A DNA stretch of 29,820 bases, from IMG/VR virus record IMGVR_UViG_3300020419_000063, positions 1-29,820 of that record, one strand, 5' to 3'. Both the position numbers and the translations under genes were made by a program. Positions 9,902-17,705 of this stretch are shown piece after piece (positions within the stretch are counted from its first letter, which is position 1; each line of letters begins with the position of its first letter). The notes beneath the pieces are model-generated. The model did not search any database, was not told the origin of the DNA, and was given only the letters and a program-made list of their open reading frames with translations. The DNA is from a virus.

Positions 9902-9909
9902 TATTTATG
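9902..9909 (-). promoter_or_regulatory. CATAAATA late promoter for genes 48-53
   Basis: On the minus strand the sequence reads CATAAATAATAAAATGG, a seven-of-eight match to TATAAATA. It overlaps the ATG of the plus-strand gene 4 (9907). T4-type start sites fall about six bases after the box, so the gene 48 message would begin at or next to its ATG, with no room for a ribosome binding site. Confidence 0.5.
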
Positions 9910-10341
9910 TCTTATTCGGGGAAATACAAACCAACCAACAGATTCAAATACAAAGGTGACCCGACTAATATTATTTATAGGAGTTTGTGGGAAAGAAAGT
10001 TTATGGTCTGGTGTGATAAAAACGAAAACGTATTGGAGTGGGGGAGTGAAGAAATTATCATACCTTATATCAGTCCTGTTGATAGGAGGGTTCATCGCTA
10101 TTTCCCAGACTTTTATGTCAGAGCAAGAACTAAAACTGGGAGGACGGAGAAGTTTATTATTGAGGTCAAGCCTAGTAAGCAGACGTCACCTCCCAAAAAA
10201 CAACGCAAAGTTACAAAGAAATATCTAACAGAAATCAAAACATATGCTGTAAATGAAGCAAAATGGAAAGCAGCAGTCGATTATTGTAAAGACCGTCGCA
10301 TGCAATTTAAGATACTCACTGAATTTGAATTAAAGGTATGA
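9907..10341 (+). CDS. 4: Head completion protein gp4 (nuclease-like fold)
   Basis: The 144-aa product has the features of T4 gp4 (also called gp50/65), which is added to DNA-filled heads before tail joining. They are FKYKGDPTNIIYRSLWERKFM, VLEWGSEEIIIPY, RYFPDFYVR and EKFIIEVKPS. The acidic and basic residues E29, D68, E86 and K88 fall where TnsA/PD-(D/E)XK nucleases hold their metal site, so cleavage or trimming of the packaged DNA end is plausible. The gene starts ten bases from the divergent gene 48, and its stop overlaps the next ATG (ATGA). Confidence 0.85.
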   Translation: MSYSGKYKPTNRFKYKGDPTNIIYRSLWERKFMVWCDKNENVLEWGSEEIIIPYISPVDRRVHRYFPDFYVRARTKTGRTEKFIIEVKPSKQTSPPKKQRKVTKKYLTEIKTYAVNEAKWKAAVDYCKDRRMQFKILTEFELKV

Positions 10342-10808
10342 CTGTATTCTCAGACATAAAAGACACGACAGGGGGTCAAGCCAAGTCAAAAGATTGGTAT
10401 CGTGCACAGTTGGTGAGTAAACTCGAACCACAGAGTGGTATTCTTGCAGTAGGTGATATTATATTCTACAGATATGCTGCTCAGACAGAACTTTTACCTT
10501 TCTATGATACATATCCTATGACACTTGTAAGTGACGTAGACTATAATAAGAGACAGTTTTCGGGTGGAAATTTACATTATTTACGTCCATCAGTCAGGCA
10601 GGGAGTGGCATCTTCATGGTCATCAGGCACACAAGCATATCCTAAGCGTTGCCACCATAAATACTTTATGTCAACAGCTACAAATATTTACATAGTGCCA
10701 AAAGAGCAACTTGCCAACTTCATACCATTACCAGTGGAGCAATTTGTTAGGGATGTCATGGGTCGCATCGTTGAAATCCCAAGTAGTTTTATATGGAGTA
10801 GAGTCTAA
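10338..10808 (+). CDS. Conserved virion-associated hypothetical protein, 156 aa
   Basis: No named domain is recognised. The pattern VGDIIFYRYAAQTELLPFYD-TYPMTLV is the most distinctive part and recurs, as I recall, in T4-like marine phages in head and tail-gene neighbourhoods. It looks like a small beta-rich protein (SH3 or OB-like barrel). A position between gp4 and gp54 suggests a role in head-tail or baseplate completion. Homology to T4 gp2 (DNA end protector) cannot be shown from sequence by eye. The start is an ATGA overlap with an AAAGG site just upstream. CATAAATA at 10656-10663 lies inside it but is not counted as a promoter. Confidence 0.7.
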   Translation: MTVFSDIKDTTGGQAKSKDWYRAQLVSKLEPQSGILAVGDIIFYRYAAQTELLPFYDTYPMTLVSDVDYNKRQFSGGNLHYLRPSVRQGVASSWSSGTQAYPKRCHHKYFMSTATNIYIVPKEQLANFIPLPVEQFVRDVMGRIVEIPSSFIWSRV

Positions 10809-11551
10809 TGTCAGCTAATTCATTTGTCAGATTTAAAGACCAAGTGATGTCGGGGTATAAAACCCCATCAAAGTCCAATCTATTCTCATTGCAGATGACA
10901 ATACCACCGAGTGTTGCTCTAAAAGAAAGTGTATTTGGGACACAAAGGCAAACACAGGAGCACTATGATGCAATAAATTACTTTGCAAGTAGTGTAACAG
11001 TACCTGGTAGGAGAGTTACAACCAGTGAGGTTAGAGATGTTGGTGTTTCACGTAAATATGCTACTAACACAGCATTTGGTGATTTACAGGTAGAGTTTTT
11101 AGTAACAAGAGACCAATATCATCGTGACTTCTTTGAGACATGGATGCAGACTACAGCATCAGACCAAGAAAATAGAGTAGGTTTGTATGAGGAATATACA
11201 TCTACAATTCAAGTATTAAAGTGGGAGAATGGGTCAAATATTGTATATGAGGCTCCAAACATACCATATAAAAACACAAAAACAAGATTAAATCGCTCAT
11301 CTGCAGTATGGCAGATATATGGTGCATTCCCATATGATATGTCTGAGCAGAATTTTAATAACGGACCTGCAGATTTAGTCTTACTTAAAGTTAACTTCTT
11401 CTTTGAAAGGTATAGATTTGACAAAGTTGGTAATCGTACTGTACAATTTGGAAAAACACTTAACGATATAACAGTAAGTAATACGGATGATATTGCAGGA
11501 AAACTAGGATTTGTCTTAGAGCAGAAAGATTCCGCCCAAGTGGGTGTCTAA
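10808..11551 (+). CDS. 54: Baseplate tail-tube initiator gp54 (gp19-type fold)
   Basis: The 247-aa product has the tail-tube fold of the gp19 family: YFASSVTVPGRRVTTSEVRD, then ATNTAFGDLQVEFLVTRDQY and HRDFFETWM, ending with a strand DLVLLKVNFFFERY. In T4, gp54 sits on gp48 and starts tube polymerisation. Assignment as gp54 rather than the main tube protein gp19 rests on length (gp19 is shorter) and on its place beside gp48 and gp4. The start overlaps the previous stop (taATG). Its stop TAA is part of a CTAAATAA box that may drive gene 26. Confidence 0.72.
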   Translation: MSANSFVRFKDQVMSGYKTPSKSNLFSLQMTIPPSVALKESVFGTQRQTQEHYDAINYFASSVTVPGRRVTTSEVRDVGVSRKYATNTAFGDLQVEFLVTRDQYHRDFFETWMQTTASDQENRVGLYEEYTSTIQVLKWENGSNIVYEAPNIPYKNTKTRLNRSSAVWQIYGAFPYDMSEQNFNNGPADLVLLKVNFFFERYRFDKVGNRTVQFGKTLNDITVSNTDDIAGKLGFVLEQKDSAQVGV

Positions 11552-11575: not shown

Positions 11576-12280
11576 ATGCCTTTACCTAAACTATCGATAC
11601 CTGAGTATGAGATGAAGTTGCCTGTCACAGGCACAAACGTTACATACCGACCTTTCCTTGTGAAAGAGGAAAAACTACTTTACCTAGCAATGGAGTCGCA
11701 AGACAACAAGCAAATGGTCAAAGCGGTTAAAACTATTATCAAAAACTGCACAAATCTAAAGAGTAATGTTGATAAACTTGCTACTTTTGAGATTGAATAC
11801 ATTTTCCTCCGTATCAGAGCAAAAGCAGTTGGTGAATTGAGTGAATTTAAAATCACTGCACCTGATGATGACGAAACACAGATAACAGTTGAAATCCCTC
11901 TAGAAGAAGTTGAAGTCTCAATTCCTGATGGTCATGACAAGAAAATCAAATTAGATGATAAACTTGGTATTGTTATGAAGTATCCTTCACTGGATGCGTT
12001 TATTCAACAGAATATGAGTGAAAACCCATCTGTTGAAGACATTTTTGAAATGGCAGCATCATGTATTGACCAAGTATATGATGATGAAGAGGTTTATGAC
12101 TCATTTTCTCACAAAGAAGCACTAGATTTTCTAGAAAACATGAATTCTGAGCAGTTTGCTAAAGTGCAAGGTTTCTTTGAAACCATGCCAAAACTATCTC
12201 ATACCATTGAAGTATATAATCCAAAGACTAAAGTCAAAAGTGAAGTAGTGTTAGAAGGGTTAGCGTCTTTTTTCGAGTAG
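11576..12280 (+). CDS. 26: gp26, baseplate hub / tail assembly chaperone
   Basis: The product (234 aa in frame 0) follows the gp26 pattern: PLPKLSIPEYEMKLPVTG, YRPFLVKEEKLLYLAMES, then FEIEYIFLRIRAKAVGE and a C-terminal VVLEGLASFFE. T4 gp26 was placed with the baseplate hub genes. Later work on tail assembly places this type of protein with chaperones of the tape measure. This position, directly before a short ORF and two tape-measure-like genes, agrees with that. The last codons TCT TTT TTC GAG TAG contain T TTT TTC in the phase required for a -1 frameshift, which would extend the protein to about 298 aa. The gene follows a CTAAATAA promoter. Confidence 0.85.
   Translation: MPLPKLSIPEYEMKLPVTGTNVTYRPFLVKEEKLLYLAMESQDNKQMVKAVKTIIKNCTNLKSNVDKLATFEIEYIFLRIRAKAVGELSEFKITAPDDDETQITVEIPLEEVEVSIPDGHDKKIKLDDKLGIVMKYPSLDAFIQQNMSENPSVEDIFEMAASCIDQVYDDEEVYDSFSHKEALDFLENMNSEQFAKVQGFFETMPKLSHTIEVYNPKTKVKSEVVLEGLASFFE
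12268..12274 (+). other. Probable -1 programmed frameshift site (T TTT TTC)
   Basis: The heptamer matches X XXY YYZ with the zero frame reading TTT TTC, two codons before the TAG of gene 26 (12278-12280). After a -1 slip the frame continues CGA GTA GCA TTA ATG without a stop and enters the 61-aa ORF at 12286 in its own frame. The fusion would be 233 plus 65 residues. It is placed as in lambda G/GT and similar tail chaperone pairs. Confidence 0.6.
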
Positions 12281-12285
12281 CATTA

Positions 12286-12471
12286 ATGCACGACAGTCTT
12301 GAGAATTACTACAAGACTAATTTCGCATTGATGCAGCATCATAAGTATAGTCTCACTGAGCTAGAGAACATGATGCCATGGGAACGTGATGTTTATGTGA
12401 GTTTACTTCTGCAATTCATTAAAGATGAAGAAGCAAGACAAAAAGCAGAAAACAATCGTATGTCCTTATGA
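12286..12471 (+). CDS. Tail-assembly chaperone second part (T4 gene 51 position), 61 aa
   Basis: The product is helical, with the pattern LMQHHKYSLTELENMMPWERD then VYVSLLLQFIKDEEARQKAE. This resembles the small downstream partners of tail chaperones, where a H-K/W-S-x-x-E-L/I-E-x-M-x-P-W-E-R motif is common. It can be read from its own ATG, five bases after the gp26 stop, or as the C-terminal part of a gp26 fusion after a -1 slip. No good Shine-Dalgarno sequence precedes the ATG, which favours coupling or frameshifting. Its end overlaps the tape-measure-like gene (ATGA). T4 gene 51 sits in the same place, but I cannot show homology. Confidence 0.68.
   Translation: MHDSLENYYKTNFALMQHHKYSLTELENMMPWERDVYVSLLLQFIKDEEARQKAENNRMSL
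12295..12318 (+). other. Inverted repeat downstream of the slippery site
   Basis: AGTCTTG (12295-12301) and CAAGACT (12312-12318) are perfect complements around a ten-base loop. The stem begins 20 bases after the heptamer, farther than the usual 5-9 base spacing of frameshift stimulators. A stimulatory role is therefore uncertain. Confidence 0.3.
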
Positions 12472-15143
12472 GACTTAAGAAGTTTGTTACTATTAATAAG
12501 TTTTCCTCTAAAACTGGTATAGGGGTTGCTTTTAATGAACTTAGAAAGGGCATCAATCGTACAGGTGTTGTTACTGATGGTATTGGGTCAAATGTAAATC
12601 AGCAAAGGAATATGTTAAAATTCCAAGCTGATTACTTATCAGATAAAACACTGTCTCAGATACAGATAGTAAAGAAGGAGACCAAACAGAAGAATCAGTT
12701 TTATGAGGCATATAAGAAACGTCTTCGTAGAATGTTTGGTGTTAGAAGAAGGCAGAAGGCAGAAGACTCAGCAGAAGATGGTGTAAAGGATGCAAAGACA
12801 AAAACAGATAAGTTAATAGGTAGAATTGGCAAACCAGTAAAGAAACTATTTGGTTTCATGGACAAAACCATTGGTAGTATAATAAAGTGGTTTGTTATAT
12901 TTGGGGCATTAGATTTTATAGGAAAGAATCCTGAGCAGATTGCAAAACTAGGAAGATTTGTGTTCGCTATAGGTAAGTTTGGATTTAATATTGTAAAACT
13001 TGGGGTAGGTGGTGTATTAAGTGGTCTTACCAATGTATTTGGTGATTATAGTGACAAGGGTGCTGTTGAGAGAGGAATGCGTAAATTTCTTGGTGTATTC
13101 CAGATAATTGGTGGTATCGCTGCACTAAGGACTGCACAGTATCTTGTTATGCCATGGAAATTGATATCTGATATGAAAGGTATCAATAATATGATGGATA
13201 GGACTGCAATGACCACAGAGGAAATCAAAGCAAGTCAGAAGGCAAGACTTGGTGGTTACAGAGATAAGAAGACAGGAGTTATATACTCAAAAGAAGAATA
13301 TAAGGCAATGCAGAAGTCGGCTCAGAGAGCTGACTCTAAACGTGCTTCCAAAGCAGGAAAAGGAATGAAGTCCGATTTATATCGGAATCAATTTGATAAG
13401 AGATTTCAAGCACAATATAAAGGACAGAAAGGACCGTTATCAAAACTGCAACAGAGAGCTAGGATTGGTCGAGGTAAGATGACTAAGGGTATTGGCAAGT
13501 TTGTCAAAGGAAATCCTGCAAAAGTAACTGGTGCTCTTAGTGTACTTGGTGGAGGATTACGAATTGCTACTGGTCTTTCTCAAGGTGAAGAAGCAGGGTC
13601 TGCGATAGGTGCGGGTGTAGGACAGGCAGTTGGAGGTATAGCGGGTGCTGCAGCATTAACAGCAGTTGCACCTTTCTTAGGACCTTTTGCACCTATGATT
13701 GGTAGTGCTATCGGTGGTTTCTTAGGTGAATGGGTTGGAAAATCATTTGGTAAGTTAGCACAACCTATATTTGAGCCTATAAAAAGAGCATTTGGTATGT
13801 ATTTTGAAATGGCGAAAGCATTATATAAACCTTTTATTGATAATCTAGGACCTGTACTTGGTGAAGTGTTTAATATTCTAGGTAGTCTTGGTAGTCTGTT
13901 ATTTAAACATACAAAACCATTAAGAGATTTCACTGGATTTGTCCTCAGCATGGGATTCAAAGCGATAGGTGAAACAGTAAAATTTGTTATTGACAATGCT
14001 AAACGATTGATGGATCCCAAGAGTATGGCAGCAGGATTTCTTGATGCTTTAACACTTAATGCCTTTGATTTGGATAATATGAATCCTGAGAATAAGGATG
14101 GCAAGAAGAAGAAAGCATGGTGGGATCCAGCTGGAGTGTTTACTGGTAAGGATAAAGAGGAAAAACCACCAGAAATGGCAGGGGGTGGTTTACTATCCTT
14201 AATGGATACAATGATTAGTATTGCAGGACATAATCCAGCTCAAAGAAAGCAGGAAATGGCAGAGGGTGGAAAGATATTAAAAGTCCCATACTACAACCAG
14301 AGAGCAAATGATGACGACCCACTTGGTCGTAAAGGTGATACGCAGTGCTATTCTACTGTCATGGCAATGTGGACAAGTTACTTAACAAGTAATAATGTAT
14401 CTACAAAAGAATATAATAAGACAAGGAGTAAGTATGGGTCATCTACAAGTGCGTCTGCACAACAAAAAGCGTTAAAAGATTATGGCATAGAAAGTAAGTT
14501 ACAGACTGGTGTGCAGGGATATGATAACTTGAAAAAAGAAATAGATGATGGATATCCAGTACCTCTTGGAATGAAGTATACAGGTAGTGGTCATTGGGCT
14601 ATGTTGACAGGATATTCACCTCTTGGATGGATAGTGCATGACCCATTTGGACAGTTAGGTAAAGGTGGTAACTGGATAAAGAAAAATTCACAGGACAGTA
14701 AGACTGAAGGTGTGGGTAAATCATATCTCATGAAGAAAGATGTATTCCAAGACCAGTCACCAGAGAATGATATATGGATGTGGAAAGCACCTAGAGGTAT
14801 AAAGGAAATTACTAAACCAAAATATGAAGAAAACGATTTATCGTTATCAGATAAAGCTGCAATGACAGTTTTCAATGGTTTTGTAAATTTTAAGGATAAA
14901 GTTTCTAATAAAATTAAGGACTTATCTGGTATCAAACCAACTGATGCAAAAGATACACAGATGAATCTAACTGATACTACATTCCAACAAAAGGCACAAA
15001 GGGATGCAGATGAAGAGATGGCTCGTGATGTGGTAGTACTTACTCAAACTATTACCCAACCAGTCATAAATAACGTAGGTGGAGCAGTACCTAACATTGT
15101 ATACAAGAATGGTAAAGGTCCTATGCTAACAGAGTTTACGTAA
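12468..15143 (+). CDS. Tape-measure-like tail protein with C39-like peptidase domain, 891 aa
   Basis: The N-terminal part is basic and helical. It is followed by a hydrophobic unit (about residues 125-190, with IIKWFVIFGALDFIGKNPEQ) and a Gly/Ala-rich membrane-type stretch at about 372-425. Then come long helices, as in proteins that fill the tail tube. From about residue 602 a globular domain begins with ILKVPYYNQ. It has C627 (DTQCYSTVMAMW), H709 (SGHWAMLTGY) and D725 (WIVHDPFGQ), the Cys-His-Asp order and spacing of C39-like papain-fold peptidases. Such a domain could trim tail proteins or cut host envelope peptides at infection. The gene starts in an ATGA overlap with the chaperone ORF. 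The tape-measure role is inferred from size, order and composition. Confidence 0.72.
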   Translation: MRLKKFVTINKFSSKTGIGVAFNELRKGINRTGVVTDGIGSNVNQQRNMLKFQADYLSDKTLSQIQIVKKETKQKNQFYEAYKKRLRRMFGVRRRQKAEDSAEDGVKDAKTKTDKLIGRIGKPVKKLFGFMDKTIGSIIKWFVIFGALDFIGKNPEQIAKLGRFVFAIGKFGFNIVKLGVGGVLSGLTNVFGDYSDKGAVERGMRKFLGVFQIIGGIAALRTAQYLVMPWKLISDMKGINNMMDRTAMTTEEIKASQKARLGGYRDKKTGVIYSKEEYKAMQKSAQRADSKRASKAGKGMKSDLYRNQFDKRFQAQYKGQKGPLSKLQQRARIGRGKMTKGIGKFVKGNPAKVTGALSVLGGGLRIATGLSQGEEAGSAIGAGVGQAVGGIAGAAALTAVAPFLGPFAPMIGSAIGGFLGEWVGKSFGKLAQPIFEPIKRAFGMYFEMAKALYKPFIDNLGPVLGEVFNILGSLGSLLFKHTKPLRDFTGFVLSMGFKAIGETVKFVIDNAKRLMDPKSMAAGFLDALTLNAFDLDNMNPENKDGKKKKAWWDPAGVFTGKDKEEKPPEMAGGGLLSLMDTMISIAGHNPAQRKQEMAEGGKILKVPYYNQRANDDDPLGRKGDTQCYSTVMAMWTSYLTSNNVSTKEYNKTRSKYGSSTSASAQQKALKDYGIESKLQTGVQGYDNLKKEIDDGYPVPLGMKYTGSGHWAMLTGYSPLGWIVHDPFGQLGKGGNWIKKNSQDSKTEGVGKSYLMKKDVFQDQSPENDIWMWKAPRGIKEITKPKYEENDLSLSDKAAMTVFNGFVNFKDKVSNKIKDLSGIKPTDAKDTQMNLTDTTFQQKAQRDADEEMARDVVVLTQTITQPVINNVGGAVPNIVYKNGKGPMLTEFT

Positions 15144-17705
15144 ATGGCAGACAAACCCACTACAAAAGTATCTAAAGCAACCCTTTATAAGATGGTGTCT
15201 TATAAGGGGATGAAGAGTGGTGAGAAATATAAGGGCATGTCAACTACAAAAGAGTTGGCATTCATGAAGGAAGACTTCGGGAAGGGAATGTCTGCTGTTA
15301 TAAGTGGTATAAACTCTTTAGGTGCATCTGTCAATGGTATTGCTCTAGGTGTGCAGAGTATGACATCATCTATGAGATTGTCAGTTGCTAAGCAAATAAA
15401 GAGTGCAGACAAACTTATAAAAATTCAAGAGAAAGGAATTGTAGACGATAAAACGAGAGAAAAGACTAAGATAAAGGATGAGCAAAGGAGACGTCAGTTA
15501 GAGAAAAGAAATGAAGCAGAGAATGCTTCAGAGATAGGACAACCATCCTTATTTAAAAAGATAAGAAAACAATTTGGAGAGAATACTAAAAAATCATTTG
15601 GTGGATTATTCTCAGGTCTAGTAAGATTCTCAGGATTTTTATTCAAAGCAACAGCAGGATTTGCTGCGTTAACTTGGTTAGCTAAGAATCCAGACTCTAT
15701 ACAAAGACTCGCTAAAACTTTAAACAGCGTTGGTAAATTCCTGTTACAGATGTCATCATTCCTAGCAGGGTCTGCAATGGATGGATTGATTAAGTTTTTA
15801 GAGAATCCTGTTAGTCTGAAAGGATTAATTGGGTCACTACAATTTCTTGCATCAGCAGCACCATTATTTGTATCATTAGCATTCCTTAAGAATCCAGTAG
15901 GCACAGTCCGTGCTTTTGCATGGGTAATAGGAGCTTTAGGTAAATCAATATCTGGAATGTTTAAGGCAGGCAAGAAGATGGACATGTTGCGTATGTTTCA
16001 TCGTAATAAGTTTGCAAAGTTAGGACTTGGTGCAGGGCTTGGTTTAGGTGTAGGAATCATAGGGTCAATGATGTCTGGTGAAGGTTTAGACCCAGAAACA
16101 CTAGGAGCAACAACAGGTGCAGGACTCGGAGCAACTGGTGGTGCTATGTTAGGTAATGCTATTGGTGGTCCTGTAGGAGGAATGTTACTGGGAGCAGCAG
16201 GAGGTGCTCTTGGTGGAAAGGTAGGTGGAGGTATTGGTAAGATGTTAAAACCTCTGACTGAGCCTATAGGAAGATATTTTAATATGATAGGTAAGGCATT
16301 TAATGATATAATGGCTCCTATAAAAGATAGTCTAGCTGGATTCTTTGAAGCACTTGGTGGTGCTATGAATGGAATCTTAGATTTCATTGAGCCACATATG
16401 CCAATGATTACTAAAATCATAGGAATTGGTGTTAATACATTATTCTCACCTTTATTCTTAGGTTTAAAAGCACTGACAGCAGTATTGAAATTCTTTTCAC
16501 CCAATAAACAAAAAGAAGAAACAACAAAAACAACGAAACCATCAATTAGTGATTCGATGTCATACACGAGAAAAGGAAACCCAGAAACAGGATTACAGGA
16601 AGTTGTTGATGGCACTCAAGGTAAAGGTATTGACATTGTAGCAGCTAATCAGCATAATTATGAGAGTCAGATAGCGTTAATAGAAAAGAAAAAAAGGAAT
16701 GATAAAAGGATAACAGAAGCACGAGGTGGTACGTTTGACCCATCCCAATATGATAAGAAACTTCTAAAACTTGAAAAAGCATATAATGCTACTCTAGAAT
16801 ATGGTGATGGAATTCAGACTTCAGCAAGTCGTGAATTTACAGGTAAAGCAAAAGGTGGATGGATAAATGGTCCTATGTCTGGATATCCTGTATCATTAGA
16901 TGGTAAGACAACAGCATTCATTGGTCATGGCACTGAGTGGGTTGGTGCAAAGATGTCATCAGGTGGTGCATTTGTCGTGCCATTTAACACTCCTGCAACT
17001 AAAAAAGATAGTGGACTAACATCACGAAGATTTCGTGAAGCAATGGCGGGTGGATATACATTACCGAAGAAAGCAGATGGTGGTATGGTAGAGCCAGACC
17101 AGTTAGTTGGTGGACACACAGACATTACAGTAAAAATGGGTGAGGACGGTGTATCATCAAAGAGCAAAGAAAAAGTGCAGTATGCTATTGACGTCAATCA
17201 TCTTTACTTACATAGGAAACAGATAGAAAACCAGTTACCAGATGGTGCAACAATAGATGATATTATTAATAAGAAACCTATTAATATAGACTCAAGAAAA
17301 CTTGATAGAATCCTAGCGTCTAGTGATGCAGCAAAAGCAACTAGAGAAAGAAGGATGATGAGAAATTTAGAGTTGATTAAGGGTATGACATTTGCGGGTG
17401 GATTTGAAACTCAGAAAAAAGCAGCAAAATTCTTATATAATAAAGCAATAGGAATAAAAGAAAATGTAGGTAGTTTAATAAACCAAGCAAAACTCAATAT
17501 GGTTGATAAGAAAATGAAAGCAGCTGAGTCTAAAGTAATTCAAGCACCTCCTCAAACTGCTGACCCGATAGTTACAGGCGGTGGAGGTGGAAGCTCATTT
17601 GATGTTCCTATCGTAACTAATGAAGAGCGTGATGCTGACCCATATCTAATAACTAGATTTGGATTAGTTTCTGAATTTAATGGAGACATGGCAGACTTAA
17701 TGTAA
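15144..17705 (+). CDS. Second tape-measure-like tail protein, 853 aa
   Basis: The layout repeats that of the preceding gene. A basic helical start is followed by a hydrophobic unit FKATAGFAALTWLAKNPDSI, alignable with FVIFGALDFIGKNPEQI there. Then come a long Gly/Ala-rich stretch (about residues 291-369) and amphipathic helices after KPLTEPIGRYFNM. There is no peptidase domain. The C-terminal third instead carries GPMSGYPVSLDGKTTAFIGH and GAFVVPFNTPATK, a motif found in phage tape-measure C-termini. Together the two genes look like an ancient duplication. The ATG is directly adjacent to the previous stop, and the stop overlaps the next ATG. Confidence 0.7.
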   Translation: MADKPTTKVSKATLYKMVSYKGMKSGEKYKGMSTTKELAFMKEDFGKGMSAVISGINSLGASVNGIALGVQSMTSSMRLSVAKQIKSADKLIKIQEKGIVDDKTREKTKIKDEQRRRQLEKRNEAENASEIGQPSLFKKIRKQFGENTKKSFGGLFSGLVRFSGFLFKATAGFAALTWLAKNPDSIQRLAKTLNSVGKFLLQMSSFLAGSAMDGLIKFLENPVSLKGLIGSLQFLASAAPLFVSLAFLKNPVGTVRAFAWVIGALGKSISGMFKAGKKMDMLRMFHRNKFAKLGLGAGLGLGVGIIGSMMSGEGLDPETLGATTGAGLGATGGAMLGNAIGGPVGGMLLGAAGGALGGKVGGGIGKMLKPLTEPIGRYFNMIGKAFNDIMAPIKDSLAGFFEALGGAMNGILDFIEPHMPMITKIIGIGVNTLFSPLFLGLKALTAVLKFFSPNKQKEETTKTTKPSISDSMSYTRKGNPETGLQEVVDGTQGKGIDIVAANQHNYESQIALIEKKKRNDKRITEARGGTFDPSQYDKKLLKLEKAYNATLEYGDGIQTSASREFTGKAKGGWINGPMSGYPVSLDGKTTAFIGHGTEWVGAKMSSGGAFVVPFNTPATKKDSGLTSRRFREAMAGGYTLPKKADGGMVEPDQLVGGHTDITVKMGEDGVSSKSKEKVQYAIDVNHLYLHRKQIENQLPDGATIDDIINKKPINIDSRKLDRILASSDAAKATRERRMMRNLELIKGMTFAGGFETQKKAAKFLYNKAIGIKENVGSLINQAKLNMVDKKMKAAESKVIQAPPQTADPIVTGGGGGSSFDVPIVTNEERDADPYLITRFGLVSEFNGDMADLM

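Follow-up and report, generated by a model that had tools for sequence, protein, structure and literature searches.

A conserved slippery heptamer at the end of gp26 points to a -1 frameshift that would join gp26 to a gp51-like domain in T4-like phages

In the viral DNA analyzed here (the window, 29,820 nucleotides in its full length), which comes from a marine cyanophage related to T4, a short open reading frame (ORF) stands directly behind the gp26 gene. The locus raises the question of whether these are two genes or a single gene with two products, the longer of which would be a tail assembly chaperone (TAC) made by a -1 ribosomal frameshift. The elements of the junction are as follows:

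11576-12280, + strand: gp26, the 0-frame product of 234 amino acids (aa) and proposed TAC-N (PF12322 T4_baseplate, E 4e-68; phrog_150, E 6e-77)
12268-12274, + strand: slippery heptamer T TTT TTC
12278-12280, + strand: 0-frame TAG stop of gp26, one codon 3' of the heptamer
12274-12471, + strand: -1 extension of 65 aa (RVALMHDSL...), a gp51-like C-terminal domain and putative T-domain equivalent
12286-12471, + strand: 61-aa ORF as usually annotated

The 3' end of gp26 reads TTA GCG TCT TTT TTC GAG TAG, in which only GAG separates the heptamer from the stop. The first-pass annotation had placed a heptamer in X XXY YYZ phase near this stop and had predicted a -1 frame open into the 61-aa ORF with a fusion of about 298 aa, and both statements agree with the sequence: the heptamer is in phase, and the -1 frame (TTT TTT CGA GTA GCA TTA ATG...), which would be translated as FFRVALMHDSLENYYK..., meets its first stop at 12469-12471. 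Fusion of gp26 with the -1 extension would give 298 aa, with the predicted junction peptide ...FFR-VALMHDSLENYYK. The number of TTTTTTC copies in the window is unremarkable (9, as against 10.4 +/- 3.0 in shuffles) and thus at the level of chance, whereas the position, phase and conservation of this copy are not, which makes the comparative evidence decisive. Stop-codon readthrough was ruled out, as the 0 frame reaches a TAA two codons past the TAG, and the +1 frame contains many stops.

For the comparison of gene 26 ends that had been proposed as a check, gp26 loci were collected from five viral-contig scans and 24 named-phage regions. A profile located gp26 in 417 loci, of which the 412 with an intact gp26 end were counted as relatives, with the T4-type duplicated genes left out; a non-redundant set contained 200 representatives (<85% identity). 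The motif T TTT TTN was found in the same phase in all 412 relatives, with TTC (372), TTA (22), TTT (17) or TTG (1) as its second codon, and the -1 junction is open in every one of them; no relative lacks the heptamer or carries a -1 stop ahead of the ORF. The second heptamer codon encodes leucine in 23 of the 412, and the six T are retained there despite the change from phenylalanine, which argues that the nucleotides are conserved and not the amino acid. One group of viral contigs (L385-L418, e.g. L392 and L413) has T TTT TTA (Phe-Leu) throughout, with the slippery run kept and the protein changed. As a control, T TTT TTY was present at 13 of 215 other Phe-Phe pairs in the same genes. The distance from heptamer to stop is one codon in 173 of the 200 representatives and 0, 2 or 8 codons in the others. 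The -1 extension is uninterrupted in all relatives (56-69 codons), while stops occur in the -1 frame within the gp26 body at a rate of 0.16 per codon (about one per six codons); at that rate, the chance of an open extension is about 3e-5 per gene. Among 550 phage records, PF12322 occurred at only one place in each.

Two kinds of signal that could stimulate slippage flank the heptamer, an upstream Shine-Dalgarno (SD)-like element and a 3' structure at 5-9 nt, and both exceed synonymous-codon controls. In the window they are located as follows:

12254-12259, + strand: SD-like GAAGGG (consensus of relatives GAG GGN), 8 nt 5' of the heptamer
12280-12289, + strand: 5' arm of the outer stem, about 5 nt 3' of the heptamer
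12325-12334, + strand: 3' arm of the outer stem, pairing with 12280-12289 in a 10-bp helix
12295-12318, + strand: inner helix (12295-12301 with 12312-12318), enclosed by the outer stem

Codons -5 and -4 before the heptamer encode Glu-Gly and are spelled GAG GGN, so that the element ends 8-9 nt upstream. Across 100 relatives, the energy predicted for its pairing with the anti-SD (16S tail) is about -6.6 kcal/mol, while synonymous shuffles reach -5.3 kcal/mol (z about -8), and the ratio of GAG to GAA among Glu codons is 107:43 at this site versus 1380:3117 elsewhere. The window carries the minority, weaker GAA variant (GAA GGG). The folding energy minimum of the region falls directly 3' of the heptamer, where folding is stronger than in synonymous shuffles (z about -12 to -16 for windows starting 3-6 nt downstream of the heptamer). 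The first-pass annotation had noted a stem at an unusual distance because it had seen the inner helix alone; this part of its reading was wrong, as the outer helix begins 5 nt after the heptamer, at classical spacing. The stem of the window has a z of -5.0 relative to dinucleotide shuffles. RNAalifold found no common structure among mixed relatives; the stems are clade-specific and no single structure fits all, so the clades were analyzed separately. In the window's own clade, changes in the outer stem are mostly one-sided with pairing kept, strong covariation is absent, and the stem is incompletely formed in 5 of 31 close relatives. In a sister clade, selected by protein motif, a 10-bp stem is paired in 93.6% of cells and one pair switches between U-A, A-U and G-C in 64 of 67 sequences. 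This covarying pair couples the codons GCT-GAG, GCA-GTG and GCG-GCG, the third base of one tracking the second base of the other.

These observations bear on two other readings of the junction. The 61-aa ORF may be a separate short gp51 gene, perhaps translationally coupled, that starts at ATG 12286, with the heptamer a coincidence. This ATG comes 5 nt after the gp26 stop, has a GAG 8 nt upstream and is retained in the window's clade, 91 of the 200 representatives have an ATG among the first 11 codons of the extension, and many records annotate a separate 'baseplate hub assembly catalyst'. Nevertheless, in 100 of the 200 representatives the -1 ORF contains no ATG, GTG or TTG before extension codon 11, although those that have no start codon conserve the motif R[IV]AL.H..LE.YY in this part, and in the window the ATG is buried in the outer stem. 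Reading the stretch before codon 11 in the -1 frame gives a dN/dS of about 0.13, as against 1.36 and 2.13 for the remaining frames, indicating that this start-less stretch is under purifying selection as protein in the -1 frame only. A separate gene needs a start codon; since half of the representatives have none and selection acts in the -1 frame, translation would have to enter from gp26. The downstream gene was omitted by the annotators of six named phages (GenBank records of ACG-2014d, ACG-2014b, S-MbCM25, S-CAM1, ACG-2014j and S-BM3). A wholly separate gene is therefore very unlikely, and separate initiation besides the frameshift is possible in the window's clade. Even less probable, and in our view barely credible, is that RNA polymerase slips on the T run, yielding mRNAs one base short and a fusion of transcriptional and not translational origin. 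The site does consist of 6 to 8 consecutive T, but the run is 6 long in 185 of the 200 representatives, and the tracts known for efficient polymerase slippage are longer than T6. The run begins exactly at codon position 3 in all 200, a phase that matters to tandem tRNA slippage and not to polymerase, whereas other T6 runs in gp26 favor another phase (80 vs 31); the SD-like element and the 3' stem, moreover, stand at ribosomal spacing.

The frameshift is thus very probably the correct reading: gp26 and the 61-aa ORF would form one gene with two products, TAC-N and a -1 frameshift fusion, TAC-NC. Most ribosomes would terminate at the TAG at 12278 and release gp26 (234 aa), a TAC-N resembling gpG. 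A minority, paused by the upstream SD-like pairing and by the stem 5 nt downstream, would slip by -1 on T TTT TTC through tandem tRNA-Phe slippage and produce the 298-aa TAC-NC, resembling gpGT and bearing the gp51-like C-terminal domain. Comparison shows the site, its phase, the open -1 frame and purifying selection in it ahead of any start codon, the SD-like and stem signals, and the homology of the fusion to gp51; what we infer is that ribosomes slip in the cell, how efficiently they do so, that both products bind the tape measure protein and the tail tube, and that the phage needs both.

The protein families are consistent with a relationship to both T4 proteins. T4 gp26 and gp51 each match PF12322 over nearly the whole profile (9e-64 and 4e-52), and the N-terminal part of gp51 is, judged from sequence, a paralogue of gp26. 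The gp51 match also takes in the columns to which the -1 extension aligns (T4 gp51 to phrog_634, 1.2e-23), so that gp51, covering both the gp26 domain and the extension columns, corresponds to the predicted fusion. The -1 extension matches phrog_634 (E 2e-31) and also columns 231-277 of phrog_150; the 61-aa ORF, which likewise matches phrog_634, falls at columns 239-277 of phrog_150, a profile long enough for gp26 plus the ORF. Pfam searches of the -1 extension returned chance matches only, a fold search with the extension alone gave no match, and searching the PDB sequences with a gp26 profile gave no credible match. In the AlphaFold model of gp26 (pLDDT 92), residues 1-87 best match HK97 gp13 (2OB9, Z 7.7) and YqbN (3KLU, Z 7.3), with the next matches at or below 4.8. 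As these Z values lie below 8 and Foldseek found no significant match with the gp26 model, the evidence for a TAC-like fold is moderate, and the N-terminal domain of gp26 may, with moderate confidence, be assigned the TAC-N fold of HK97 gp13 and YqbN.

The gp26 cassette sits between a tail tube-like gene and a tape-measure-like gene:

10808-11551, + strand: tail tube or gp54-like tail tube initiator gene, upstream of gp26 (phrog_45 tail tube, E 3.6e-37)
12468-15143, + strand: tape-measure-like gene of 891 aa that encodes a C39-type peptidase domain and shares 4 nt with the -1 ORF

The 891-aa protein has weak tape measure matches (phrog_794, 5e-6; phrog_973, 4e-5), which together with its position suggest a tape-measure-like identity, and its residues 604-726 match PF13529 (C39-type peptidase). 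At the same place, P-HM2 has a gene annotated as an M15 peptidase, versus the C39 type in the window, and the lytic domain of the tape-measure-like protein seems exchangeable. The tape-measure-like gene is followed at 15144-17705 by an 853-aa gene that matches PHROG profiles of the endolysin family but nothing in Pfam. Further upstream, at 9907-10341, a homologue of the head closure protein gp4 matches a TnsA-like endonuclease N-terminal domain (PF08722, 2e-22).

A further reading accepts the frameshift but assigns its products to the baseplate hub and not to tape-measure chaperones. It draws on the history of T4, in which gp26 and gp51 were regarded as hub-assembly proteins and gp51 is essential, absent from the virion and without known function (PMC3004832). 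The TAC-like fold at the N terminus of gp26, the two-product layout resembling G/GT, the tape-measure-like gene adjoining the cassette and the TAC assignment published for T4-like phages, as relayed in passages of PMC12846349 and PMC10274946, speak against a hub role, which we regard as unlikely. The first-pass proposal that the gp26 pair is a frameshift-made chaperone draws support from the gp26-gp51 paralogy, the tape-measure-like neighbor and the TAC-like fold.

T4 gp26 and gp51 and the genes of the window belong to the same protein family (PF12322), and the C-terminal domain of gp51 lies in the -1 frame of the window. The arrangements differ: T4 encodes the two forms in separate, divergent genes, as does Aes508, and T4 has no frameshift and no slippery site at the end of gp26, whereas the window has one gene and a probable frameshift. 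Phages phiAS5 and S13 and the Vibrio phages, from the same broad group as T4, have a single gene with the heptamer; phiAS5 is another large Aeromonas phage, which we take to be a relative of Aeh1. Among T4-like phages, the frameshift gene lies next to genes 2/54 (loci L085, L102, L088 and L104), versus the duplicated 26/51 next to 25 and 27 (L081 and L101). Cyanophage gp51 was described as short by about 200 residues, and gp51 as missing in Aeh1, by Sullivan et al. 2010 (PMC3037559). If the gp51 domain is read as the -1 half of a frameshift gene, cyanophage gp51 will look truncated, and by analogy with phiAS5 the missing gp51 of Aeh1 would be the frameshift arrangement.

In its broadest form, the proposal is tentative and held with well under even confidence: that the frameshift with its SD-like element and covarying stem has gone undescribed for cyano- and pelagiphages and is widespread in the sampled PF12322 phages, that 'truncated' gp51 is a misannotated -1 half, and that T4 gp51 arose by duplication, the long form becoming a gene of its own. 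The frameshift reading as such, which is far more probable, would correct how a near-core gene is annotated in the genomes of hundreds of marine T4-like phages, explain the cyanophage gp51 without its first 200 residues and offer a reason for its apparent absence in Aeh1. T4 gp51 would gain a testable role as a long tail chaperone, and the relatives would form an extensive natural collection in which to study -1 slippage at U UUU UUN together with its SD and stem stimulators.

TAC frameshifting as a kind is known, and the T4-like case is probably known too. Tail assembly chaperones made by a -1 frameshift, among them lambda G/GT, were reportedly treated by Xu, Hendrix and Duda in 2004, and Vladimirov, Gautam and Davidson (Virology 2022) are said to have recognized which genes of T4-like phages encode TACs, with T4 gp26/gp51 as TAC-N/TAC-NC. 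A passage of PMC12846349 credits Vladimirov et al. with poly-T slippery sequences in T4-like TAC-N genes, and one in PMC10274946 attributes to them the observation that short and long TAC genes are separate in some T4-like phages. The first-pass statement that no description was known in T4-like cyanophages was thus too strong, given that T4-like TACs and, as cited, poly-T sites are published. In the open literature no text naming cyanophages for TAC frameshifting was found, an SD element or covarying stem was not mentioned, and nothing was found that joins 'baseplate hub assembly catalyst' with 'frameshift'. The TAC frameshift of the Vandenendeviridae and Andersonviridae (phage Adele, PMC12846349) resembles that of the window in its conserved poly-T site and always-open -1 frame, likewise inferred comparatively, but uses a GTTTTT motif and occurs in different phage families. 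Frameshifted TACs, lambda G/GT among them, are classical (reviewed in PMC5009743). Lambda has a G-rich slippery site where the window has T TTT TTC, gp26 belongs by sequence to a protein family other than that of G/GT, and SD-like and stem stimulators are both evident in the window cassette; gpG would nevertheless correspond to gp26 as the short product and gpGT to the frameshift fusion as the long one.
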